Source: Faecalibacterium prausnitzii (GTDB taxonomy: Bacteria > Bacillota > Clostridia > Oscillospirales > Ruminococcaceae). Taken from it: a stretch of DNA of 64,000 bases. The position numbers and the translations under genes are program-made. The notes beneath the pieces were generated by a model. It saw only the letters and a list, made by a program, of their open reading frames with translations, ran no database searches and was not told the DNA's origin. Shown piece after piece: positions 23,530 through 27,172 of this stretch (position 1 is its first letter; every line of letters starts with the position of its first letter). The stretch is taken from contig NZ_PXUP01000007.1 in assembly GCF_003324185.1 (NCBI RefSeq), positions 1 through 64,000 on the forward strand, read 5' to 3'.

Positions 23530-23928
23530 ATGTACGAAACCAAACCTTATTTCTACGGCACTGGTCGTCGTAAGGATTCCGTTGCCCGCGTTCGCGTTTA
23601 CACCGGCACCGGTAAGATCACCATCAACGATCGTGATATCGACAACTACTTCGGTCTGGAGACCCTGAAGCTGATCGTCCGTTCTCCGCTGGTCCTGCTG
23701 GGCCTGGAGGGCAAGTATGACGTCGTCGTCCGCGTTTCCGGCGGCGGTGTTTCCGGTCAGGCTGGCGCTATCCGTCACGGCCTGAGCCGCGCCCTGCTGC
23801 AGCAGAGCGACGAGAACCGTCCTGTGCTGAAGAAGGCTGGCTTCCTGACCCGCGATCCTCGTATGAAGGAGCGTAAGAAGCCAGGTCTGAAGGCTGCACG
23901 TCGTGCTCCCCAGTTCTCCAAGCGCTGA
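23530..23928 (+). CDS. rpsI: Ribosomal protein S9 (uS9)
   Basis: A 132-residue small-subunit protein. [16 protein letters not shown] at the start, [19 protein letters not shown] in the middle and the basic tail [25 protein letters not shown], whose C-terminus contacts P-site tRNA. AAGGAGG precedes the ATG. The last 25 bases belong to a downstream tandem duplication and are also one arm of a 16-bp inverted repeat. Confidence 0.98.
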
Positions 23929-23950
23929 TTATATTTCAGATGCAACTTTA

Positions 23951-23978
23951 CGGCTCTGCTTCGGCAGAGCCGTTTTTT
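23951..23978 (+). terminator. Terminator of rplM-rpsI, copy 1
   Basis: CGGCTCTGC/GCAGAGCCG 9-bp stem with a TTCG loop and TTTTTT. Confidence 0.92.
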
Positions 23979-24154
23979 GCTGCCCCTTTCCCGGAGAACA
24001 GGGGAGCACGACTGCGCATCTCCGACGGTTGCCCCGCAAGGGGCGAGCCGGAGGCGCTTATAAAACATTGCTCAAGCATCGCGTGCAGGGCGCAGCCCTG
24101 CCAGCGATGCTCCCCAGTTCTCCAAGCGCTGATTATATTTCAGACGCAACTTTA

Positions 24155-24182
24155 CGGCTCTGCTTCGGCAGAGCCGTTTTTT
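24155..24182 (+). terminator. Duplicated terminator, copy 2
   Basis: Identical CGGCTCTGC-TTCG-GCAGAGCCG-TTTTTT inside the second duplication unit. It has no gene of its own and would catch read-through from copy 1. Confidence 0.9.
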
Positions 24183-24343
24183 GCTGCCCCTTTCCCGGAG
24201 AACTGGGGAGCACGACTGCGCATCTCCGGCGGTTGCCCTGCAAGGGGCGAGCCGGAGGCGCTTTTAAATCCTTGCTCAAGCATCGCGTGCTAAAACAAAA
24301 AGCATGGGTTTGCGTCTATTCTGCAAACTTTTTATGAACCCTA

Positions 24344-24372
24344 TTGACAAAGTGGGTGAATAGGAGTATATT
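24344..24372 (+). promoter_or_regulatory. Promoter of clpB
   Basis: TTGACA (24344-24349), a 17-bp spacer and TATATT (24367-24372), a housekeeping sigma promoter immediately before the CIRCE element. Confidence 0.88.
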
Positions 24373-24373
24373 T

Positions 24374-24400
24374 TTAGCAGTCGAGCAGATAGAGTGCTAA
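24374..24400 (+). promoter_or_regulatory. CIRCE operator (HrcA site)
   Basis: TTAGCAGTC-N9-GAGTGCTAA, differing from the classical inverted repeat TTAGCACTC-N9-GAGTGCTAA at one position. It covers the transcription start of clpB, so HrcA should repress clpB until heat shock. Confidence 0.92.
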
Positions 24401-24438
24401 AAACAAAACAAACTGCTCCGTAGGAGGCGTGCAAGACC

Positions 24439-24501
24439 ATGAAGAAGAACATCTGTATAATCAACTCACGGCTCTGCCGCCGCCGGGCGCGGAGCTGTTA
24501 G
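24439..24501 (+). CDS. Candidate 20-codon leader peptide upstream of clpB
   Basis: An ATG at 24439 is preceded by TAGGAGG with a 12-base gap and opens 20 codons to TAG at 24499-24501. The peptide starts MKKNICII and ends SRLCRRRARSC, so it has three cysteines and seven arginines. It lies wholly in the clpB leader, between CIRCE and the clpB ribosome site. Its 3' half forms a hairpin (GCTCTGC/GCGGAGC). Translation of a run of rare or limiting codons (CGC CGC CGG, TGC) could affect downstream expression. No known leader-peptide family is recognised; it may also be chance. Confidence 0.45.
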   Translation: MKKNICIINSRLCRRRARSC

Positions 24502-24559
24502 CAAAGAACTTATCCGTCCGCTAAAATAAACCTTCCGGTATGAATGGAGGCTTGACTTT

Positions 24560-27172
24560 ATGAATACCAATCAATATACCCAAAAGACCCTTGAGGCTTT
24601 GCAGGCAGCCCAGCAGCTGGCTGTGGAGTATCAGCACAATGCGCTGGAGCCCGCCCACCTGCTGCACGCACTGGCTGCGCAGGAAAACGGCCTGATCCCT
24701 CAGCTGCTGCAAAAGCTGAACGTTGACCCCGGCAGCTTTGCCGCCGCCGTGGCGGAAAAGCTGTCAGCGCTGCCCCGGGTGTCCGGCTCCGGTCGCGACC
24801 CCGATAAGGTCTATATCTCGCAGGCCACCGATAAGGTGCTCAGTGCCGCCGCCCGCGAAGCCAAGGCCATGAAGGACGACTTCATCAGCGTGGAGCATCT
24901 GTTCCTTGGCCTGCTGGACGAACAGGACCAGACCACCAGTGAGCTGTTCCGCGCCTTCAACCTGAAAAAGGACGCCTTTTTGCAGCAGCTTACCGCCGTG
25001 CGCGGCAACCAGCGGGTGACCACCGATAACCCGGAGGACACCTACAACGCACTGCAGAAGTACGGTCAGGATCTGGTGGAACTTGCCCGCAAGCAGAAGC
25101 TGGACCCCGTCATTGGTCGAGATCAGGAGATCCGCAATGTGATCCGTATCCTGTCCCGTAAGACCAAAAACAACCCCTGCCTCATCGGTGAGCCCGGCGT
25201 TGGTAAAACCGCCATCGCCGAGGGTCTGGCGCAGCGCATCGTGCGTGGCGATGTGCCCGAAAACCTGAAGAACCGCACCGTGTTCAGCTTGGACATGGGT
25301 GCTCTGGTGGCCGGTGCAAAGTACCGCGGCGAGTTCGAGGAACGCTTAAAGAGCGTGCTGAACGAGGTGAAAAAGAGCGAGGGCAAAATCATCCTCTTCA
25401 TCGATGAGCTGCACACCATCGTGGGTGCCGGTAAGACCGACGGCGCTATGGACGCAGGCAACCTGCTCAAGCCCATGCTGGCGCGCGGCGAGCTGCACTG
25501 CATCGGCGCGACCACGCTGGACGAGTACCGTCAGTATATCGAAAAAGACCCCGCACTGGAGCGCCGGTTCCAGCCGGTGCAGGTGGATGAGCCTACCGTG
25601 GAGGATACCATCTCCATCCTGCGCGGCCTGAAGGAGCGGTATGAGGTGTTCCACGGCGTAAAGATCAACGATAGCGCCCTGATCGCCGCTGCCACCCTTT
25701 CCGACCGCTATATCACCGACCGCTTCCTGCCGGATAAGGCCATCGACCTTGTGGATGAAGCCTGCGCCATGATCAAGACCGAGATGGACAGCATGCCCAG
25801 CGAGATGGACGATCTGGCACACCGCATCACCCAGCTGCAGATCGAGCAGGTGAGCCTGAAAAAGGAGACTGACGCTCTGAGCCAGAGCCGTTTGAAGGAT
25901 CTGGAAAAGGAGCTTGCCGAATTGCAGGATAAGTTCCGCAGCATGAAGGCAAAGTGGGAGAACGAGAAGAACGCCATTGGCAAGGTGCAGACTCTGCGCG
26001 AGCAGATCGAGCAGACCAATGCCGCCATCGAGAAAGCCCAGCGCGAGTACGACCTGAACAAGGCCGCCGAACTGAAATACGGCAAGCTGCCCCAGCTGCA
26101 AAAGCAGCTGGCCGAAGAGGAAAAGGTGGCTGCCGCCAAGAAGGAGGACAGCCTGCTGCGTGACCGCGTGACCGACGAGGAGATCGCCCGCATCGTGGCA
26201 CGCTGGACCGGCATCCCGGTGGAGAAGCTGGTGGAGGGCGAGCGCGAGAAGCTGCTGCATCTGGACGATGTGCTGCACCAGCGGGTCATCGGTCAGGACG
26301 AGGCTGTGACCAAGGTAAGCGAAGCCATTCTGCGCAGCCGCGCCGGTATTGCCAATCCCAACCGCCCTATCGGCAGCTTCCTGTTCCTCGGCCCTACCGG
26401 CGTGGGCAAGACCGAGCTGGCTAAGGCACTGGCACAGGCACTGTTTGACGACGAGCGCAACATGGTGCGTATCGATATGACCGAATATATGGAGAAGTTC
26501 AGCGTCAGCCGTCTGATCGGCGCGCCTCCGGGATATGTCGGTTATGAAGAGGGCGGCCAGCTGACCGAGGCTGTGCGCCGCAAACCTTACAGCGTGGTGC
26601 TGTTCGATGAGGTGGAAAAAGCTCACCCCGATGTGTTCAACATCCTGTTGCAGGTGCTGGACGATGGCCGCATCACGGATAGTCAGGGCCGCACCGTGGA
26701 CTTCAAGAACACGGTCATTATCCTGACCTCCAACCTTGGCAGTGATATCATCCTGAACGATCTGGAGCAGCGCCGTGCGCAGGGCTCCAACGAGCTGAGC
26801 GAGGATGCAAAGCACCAGATCGACCTGTTGCTCAAGAGCAAGTTCCGTCCCGAATTTTTGAACCGTCTGGACGAGATCGTCTACTACAAGAGCCTGACCA
26901 AGGACGAAATGCGCAAGATCGTGGATCTGCAGCTGCAGGATCTGCGCAACCGCATGGAGGAGGGCAAGCACCTCAAGCTGGAGGTCACCACCGCCGCCAA
27001 GGACTTCATCATTGATTCTGCCTACGACAGCGTCTATGGTGCACGTCCCATCAAGCGCTTCATCCAGAGCCGCGTGGAGACCCTGATCGCCAAGGCCATC
27101 ATCAAGGGCAGTTATGCCGAGGGCGATACCCTGACGGTGGATTATGACGGCAGCGCATTGGTTCTGCGTTAA
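24560..27172 (+). CDS. clpB: ClpB disaggregase
   Basis: This 870-residue AAA+ chaperone dissolves protein aggregates together with DnaK. The N-domain (1-145) is followed by NBD1 with Walker [10 protein letters not shown] and Walker [10 protein letters not shown]. The coiled-coil middle domain spans about residues 400-525. NBD2 has [25 protein letters not shown] and the [20 protein letters not shown] pore region. The length is normal and the middle domain marks ClpB rather than ClpA/C. GGAGG lies 9 bases upstream. HrcA control through CIRCE is predicted. Confidence 0.97.

Follow-up and report, generated by a model that had tools for sequence, protein, structure and literature searches.

The clpB gene of this Faecalibacterium prausnitzii genome is preceded by two CIRCE-like sites, and between them lies a short open reading frame (ORF) whose stop codon falls inside the second site. 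Comparison with relatives suggests that evolution has retained the existence and stopping point of this ORF but not its peptide sequence. We tentatively read the arrangement as a two-operator, HrcA-controlled leader in which a ribosome on a peptide-indifferent ORF helps RNA polymerase past the second operator. The elements, numbered within the window (the whole stretch of 64,000 nucleotides that was analysed), are as follows:

24344-24372, forward strand: clpB promoter, TTGACA-17-TATATT, 11 of 12 consensus letters
24374-24400, forward strand: CIRCE1, the primary operator for HrcA, covering the predicted start of transcription; one mismatch to the consensus
24422-24427, forward strand: AGGAGG, the Shine-Dalgarno (SD) sequence of the leader ORF; AGGAGGTG in close relatives
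24439-24501, forward strand: leader ORF, 20 codons (MKKNICIINSRLCRRRARSC) plus TAG; strong-SD ORF in 17 of 27 genus leaders
about 24471-24495, forward strand: hairpin rich in G+C within the 3' half of the ORF, z = -3.5; kept in close relatives only
24498-24524, forward strand: CIRCE2, a degenerate second CIRCE (TTAGCA...CGCTAA), 12 of 18 consensus letters, with the ORF stop codon in its left arm
24546-24550, forward strand: GGAGG, core of the clpB SD, from the sequence
24560-27172, forward strand: clpB, above the cut-off of TIGR03346

The clpB product scores 1354 bits against the curated ClpB model TIGR03346 (cut-off 1232.1), and the leader from CIRCE to the clpB ATG at 24560 is 159 nt long. 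A preliminary description of this DNA had placed the CIRCE, the SD, the 20-codon ORF and clpB here, and the sequence confirms all four; it had overlooked CIRCE2, the site that contains the ORF stop codon. The gap between AGGAGG and the ORF start is 11 nt, longish against the optimum. A -35/-10-like pair can be recognised by eye 5' of CIRCE1 in the 19 leaders compared. Further upstream, between rpsI and the clpB promoter, a 183-nt direct repeat is present in two copies that are 96% identical (23904-24086 and 24108-24290), each with a terminator-like hairpin and T run at its end.

CIRCE1 reads TTAGCAGTC-N9-GAGTGCTAA, agrees with the consensus at 17 of 18 letters and begins 1 nt past the -10 hexamer. 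Its right arm is GAGTGCTAA in all 56 leaders of the clade and its left arm is TTAGCAGTC in 55 of them (the other one has A); ten of the 56 were found through the pattern TTAGCAGTC-N9-GAGTGCTAA, which bears on the left-arm count, and with these excluded it is 45 of 46. That pattern is present in 79 of 396 genomes, from which only sites judged to be at clpB were taken further. In the listed leaders from outside the clade the left arm is TTAGCACTC or TTAGCACTT; L086, with ATAGCACTC, and the duplicate L041 are the exceptions. The clade's clpB CIRCE1 carries a conserved C-to-G change in its left arm; three other CIRCE of the same genome keep the consensus. Six CIRCE sites were found in the genome, at clpB, hrcA, htpG, groES and two hsp20 genes, the htpG, groES and hsp20 names being assigned by eye from translations. 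HrcA itself is encoded (PF01628 above the cut-off, E 1.5e-34), and with both a promoter CIRCE and an hrcA gene in place, clpB is a predicted member of an HrcA/CIRCE regulon.

The genus set comprises 31 genomes, in 27 of which the clpB start was obtained; the 27 leaders used are L001-L025 (from a DNA search), L038, whose coordinates match G019, and L118, which is G020. All 27 have a CIRCE; six are short (87-106 nt, without the ORF) and 21 are long (163-234 nt). We chose the 56 clade leaders ourselves, 46 through DNA or protein similarity and ten through the CIRCE pattern, and 22 representatives were selected from the tree by eye. Each genome set contains one genome per species, and many leaders come from close relatives, so the counts given below are not independent.

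Shuffles would yield a strong-SD ORF of 12 codons or more in 0.29 of the 27 genus leaders, against the 17 observed, and 0.7% of 1000 dinucleotide shuffles of the present leader contain one; judged from sequence, the leader ORF is not a product of chance. This bears out the conserved short ORF that the preliminary description had suggested looking for upstream of clpB in relatives. Ten of the 17 strict ORFs have 20 codons and four have 21, with one each of 25, 18 and 12. Both analysed genomes of g13 (L132, L133), the genus sister to this one in the ClpB tree, likewise have a 20-codon ORF with AGGAGG. No SD-ORF was found in L025 or L118, which are long genus leaders; the ORFs of L025 and L124 were read by eye alone. 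A longer overlapping frame of 31 codons, starting from GTG at 24429, was rejected as a candidate, being only 8 codons long in L002.

Of the 17 strict ORFs, 16 end on the TAG of the CIRCE2 left arm (TTAGCA or CTAGCA), reached by frames of 18, 20, 21 or 25 codons; the exception is L023, which stops 7 nt ahead of CIRCE2. The ORF of L024, with 28 codons and a weaker SD, also ends on the CIRCE2 TAG. Counted more broadly, an SD-ORF ends between -15 and +5 of the CIRCE2 edge in 19 of 21 long genus leaders (0.23 expected) and in 3 of 17 long leaders of other genera, giving 22 of 38 against 0.40 expected. These expectations come from shuffling only the stretch between the operators; the SD pattern was widened after L024 and L038 had been inspected and was applied identically to the shuffles. 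In L010, L013 and L025, CIRCE2 was positioned manually at TTAGCA. Short ORFs also end on the CIRCE2 TAG in L169 and L128 of genus g110, where CIRCE2 scores 10 and 11 of 18. In that genus AGGAGG (L124, L128) or AAGGA (L169) lies inside the 9-nt spacer of CIRCE1 and is followed by a 15-16-codon ORF ending on the CIRCE2 TAG; by eye, the SD of L124 and L128 is a long 16 nt from the start.

CIRCE2 in this genome is TTAGCAAAG-aacttatcc-GTCCGCTAA, in exact CIRCE register, with a shuffle p of 0.027 for this leader alone. Across the clade, a second site reaches p < 0.05 (1000 shuffles each) in 32 of 56 leaders; the 24 without one include all 12 leaders of 76-80 nt together with L009, L010, L013, L025, L038 (11/18, p = 0.096) and L118. 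L010 and L013 have the ORF with a second site of just 10/18 in the scan. Of the 44 clade leaders that reach 85 nt, 30 have a second site with 9-9-9 spacing and a score of at least 12/18, as do 14 of the 22 representatives, whereas 1000 permuted palindromic half-sites gave means of 0.72 (of 44) and 0.37 (of 22) and maxima of 24 and 8, none reaching 30 or 14; a single permuted motif accounted for the maximum of 24. The true half-sites at spacers of 3-8 or 10-19 occur in 0-3 of the 44 leaders. The distribution of CIRCE2 links it to this clade: a site of at least 12/18 was found in one of 50 clpB upstream regions lacking CIRCE1, regions that had been selected for having no site of 14/18 or better, and in none of the 20 scannable CIRCE1-clpB leaders outside the clade (0 of 21 with the duplicate L041, which is the in-genus L010). 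The entire window holds nine sites of at least 12/18, counting CIRCE1. CIRCE2 is weak, at 12-14/18, but as an inverted repeat beyond chance it is a putative conserved second HrcA operator.

Could CIRCE2 instead be an RNA hairpin? In the four leaders of the G016 type (L016, L019, L020, L022) just 5 of the 9 arm positions can pair, and still GAGTG is kept in the CIRCE2 right arm; this is more in keeping with a DNA operator than with an RNA stem. We set the hairpin reading aside, since pairing is poor in the L016 group with the DNA consensus kept; yet pairing is good in L007 and L120, where 8 of 9 arm positions can pair, so some RNA role is possible. CIRCE2 at 12/18 or better also occurs without an SD-ORF, in L119, L120, L125, L129, L176-L179 and four of the six short genus leaders (in these four, 34 bp after the CIRCE1 start), so the ORF is not needed everywhere that CIRCE2 exists.

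On the ClpB tree the presence of the ORF needs 2 changes, against 12.9 in shuffles (the tree has 56 rows, of which 18 unlabelled ones were left out of this test). All six short genus leaders group together (support 86/98), nested within branches that carry the ORF; the simplest history is therefore a single loss of the ORF, by deletion, in these six species. What the ORF encodes varies widely: peptides across the genus, such as MKKNICIINSRLCRRRARSC, MKHKSKVRCFRFCSLCAQSG, VKQLKNSRCFPFGSISAPGF and MIQFVCTSAPLGSGFFLPPPC, are unrelated. Within the leader, the four nearest species differ most in the ORF, where the mean p-distance is 0.137; CIRCE2 has 0.019 and the final 35 nt have 0.000. The order is reversed in L006-L008 (ORF 0.035, CIRCE2 0.148). 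Nonsynonymous/synonymous ratios for the ORF are 0.48, 0.13 and 0.60 in three groups, and a synonymous excess falls below P = 0.05 in 2 of 15 pairs under a placement null, the pairs not being independent. There is thus no clear sign in these alignments of purifying selection on the leader peptide.

These patterns bear directly on the preliminary description, which had proposed a translational layer over HrcA repression in which a peptide sensing Cys or Arg controls access to the clpB start. A translational layer is likely, given an SD-ORF conserved in position and frame; the sensing and access mechanism is highly improbable. It drew on the RLCRRRARSC of this genome and on the hairpin in the ORF, whose fold does exist at about 24471-24495 (its z value was computed on the ORF from codon 5 through the stop). 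Among L002-L004, the three nearest species, however, Cys6 is replaced by D, D and Y; two have HRR or RRW in place of RRR, and one has Y for the C-terminal Cys. The synonymous bias and conserved RRR and Cys expected of a sensing peptide reduce to the two nominally significant pairs above, with varying codons. The hairpin fares no better across the genus. Only 4 of 21 leaders show a z of -2 or lower for the 3' part of the ORF, and the whole leader is not clearly better folded than shuffles (z = -1.15). Masking the whole ORF as ribosome-covered leaves the predicted accessibility of the clpB SD at 0.20 here and shifts it by more than 0.10 in only 2 of 21 leaders (L007, L016); masking the stop region alone does so in two (L007, L024), and all of these shifts are downward. 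On this folding of 21 leaders we rejected hairpin attenuation of clpB translation. The ORF contains no terminator-like hairpin with a T run, and an intrinsic terminator in the leader was rejected because the sole match overlies the clpB SD itself. An amino-acid-sensing attenuator was likewise rejected, there being no conserved regulatory codon run and no terminator or SD-sequestering hairpin under ORF control. Rfam gave no match between 21000 and 29000 at gathering thresholds. As a separate observation, CTTCCGGTATGAATGGAGG at 24532-24550 surrounds the clpB SD and is kept in the nearest relatives; local pairing is possible there (SD about 0.20 unpaired), and the region is a possible RNA thermometer.

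What is conserved, then, is a ribosome binding site with a start codon, an open frame whose sequence is free to vary, and a stop placed at the second operator, which suggests that the position of the ribosome matters and not its product. In the model that we tentatively favour, HrcA at the strong CIRCE1 over the transcription start would block initiation, and HrcA at the weak CIRCE2, about 125 bp inside the transcribed region, would slow those polymerases that escape. A ribosome loaded on the leader ORF would catch the stalled polymerase from behind and push it across CIRCE2, and would itself terminate at the UAG in the left arm, leaving the clpB start free. Both sites, the SD-ORF and where it stops, its conservation despite a changing peptide, and one likely loss can all be read in the DNA; from them we infer translation of the ORF, HrcA binding to CIRCE2 and ribosome-aided passage of the polymerase.

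The geometry is compatible with such a roadblock, as an operator recognised by sequence match lies inside the predicted transcribed region and the ORF ends there. In the 15 leaders listed the ORF starts 43-83 nt upstream of CIRCE2, which would leave space for a ribosome behind a polymerase stalled at the site. In the expressome, a collided pair has about 30 nt between the ribosomal P site and the polymerase active site; at that spacing, a ribosome at the ORF stop would have brought the polymerase to roughly the far edge of CIRCE2. In these 15 leaders the stops precede the CIRCE2 right edge by 26-39 nt. Excerpts of two papers describe trailing ribosomes that push stalled polymerase and help it past roadblocks (PMC10310618, PMC7858274), and those of the second describe transcription in B. 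subtilis as outrunning translation and mostly uncoupled from it (PMC7858274). Such uncoupling weakens the case for pushing in Firmicutes unless the polymerase stalls. It is more speculative that the ORF evolved to deliver a ribosome to a repressor operator, forming a gate in which translation capacity would determine how readily polymerase gets past HrcA, and which would read ribosome activity together with chaperone shortage. For Rho, four weak matches were found in the genome (listed as 99.85% complete), none above the curated cut-off; a role of the ORF in protection from Rho is thus unlikely, and Rho-dependent leader control was rejected on the same ground.

The main rival to ribosome-aided passage, uncertain in its own right but a serious possibility, is that the SD and ORF act as a 5' mRNA stabiliser of the STAB-SD kind, with a near-5' ribosome shielding the leader from the 5'-3' exonuclease RNase J and the stop merely keeping translation off clpB. 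It owes this rank to a TIGR00649 protein (listed as MG423) encoded in the genome, which we take to be of the RNase J family. A strong SD near the 5' end, itself a predicted end, and an RNase J-type protein are both found here, as a STAB-SD would have it. The leader SD is predicted to pair at -10.2 to -16.0 kcal/mol and the clpB SD at -10.6 to -11.4, and the former is the stronger in 13 of 17 strict-ORF leaders, though not in this genome (-10.2 against -10.6) nor in L018, L021 or L023. An AGGAGGA near the predicted 5' end with no adjacent start codon also occurs in at least eight CIRCE-hsp20-like leaders (8 of the 11 listed, from 18 loci examined), including both copies here, which again suits a stabiliser. 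(The hsp20-like genes of this genome, L182 and L208, start 162 nt after the CIRCE start.) A STAB-SD, however, which would not direct translation, requires no start codon, frame or stop, whereas at clpB the start codon and frame are kept alongside the SD and the stop sits on the CIRCE2 TAG in all but one strict ORF; moreover, the six short leaders manage with neither SD nor ORF.

It is less likely that CIRCE2 acts as an auxiliary operator, binding HrcA cooperatively or by looping, and that the ORF is a separate leftover or has an unrelated role. Such a site would account for CIRCE2 occurring without the ORF in other genera and in the short genus leaders, and a low-affinity site beside a high-affinity one is known for repressors, as in an excerpted account of HspR in C. 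jejuni (PMC7464140). It would leave the conservation of frame and stop unexplained, however, and the distances between CIRCE1 and CIRCE2, 34 to 258 bp across leaders, match by eye no single helical phase. CIRCE2 might also serve a second, weaker promoter, TTAGCA-18-TAAAAT at 24498-24527, with 9 of 12 consensus letters in the window; by eye, its TAAAAT is kept in L001-L004 and L006-L008 but lost in L005, L010, L013 and the L016 group, and we regard this as improbable. Slightly less credible still is an untranslated, neutral relic: a peptide nearly free to evolve and the absence of the ORF from six species that retain CIRCE1 would suit it, but SD-ORFs end at CIRCE2 in 19 of the 21 long genus leaders, where shuffles lead one to expect 0.23.

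If ribosome-aided passage holds, heat-shock control in a clade of gut bacteria would gain a step that acts during elongation and is linked to translation, and the leader would exemplify an ORF kept for the destination of its ribosome and not for its peptide, a class missed by searches for peptide conservation. HrcA/CIRCE control is usually pictured as an operator at the promoter; what the present comparison adds is a second operator-like site and its apparent tie to an ORF stop, in Faecalibacterium and a few relatives. The open-licence literature searched gave nothing on a CIRCE-clpB leader peptide, on HrcA/CIRCE in Faecalibacterium, or on ribosome profiling or small-protein leaders in that genus, and among the matches listed for HrcA, CIRCE and clpB no title or abstract opening describes such a leader.

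Set beside known systems, the clpB locus is like class I HrcA/CIRCE genes of the B. subtilis type in having a promoter followed by an operator of the TTAGCACTC-N9-GAGTGCTAA form and an hrcA gene in the genome, and unlike them in the degenerate second operator in the leader, the short ORF between the two and the C-to-G change in the left arm of CIRCE1. Two CIRCE at one gene are also described for dnaK of Lactococcus lactis (PMC1676014), where both overlap the promoter; here the second is degenerate and about 125 bp downstream. The cry3A STAB-SD of B. thuringiensis, as excerpted, likewise places a strong SD near the mRNA 5' end and far from the gene start (PMC4113751), and the present host has a TIGR00649 protein; the clpB leader differs in that its SD belongs to a start codon, with a reading frame running to an operator. 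Finally, the translation-aborting short ORF mgtQ lies upstream of mgtB, and its translation affects the next gene, as that of the clpB leader ORF may do; judging by the headings of the paper, mgtQ works through alternative stem-loops and acidic codons (PMC8092293), and the clpB leader differs in having no conserved structure or codons.
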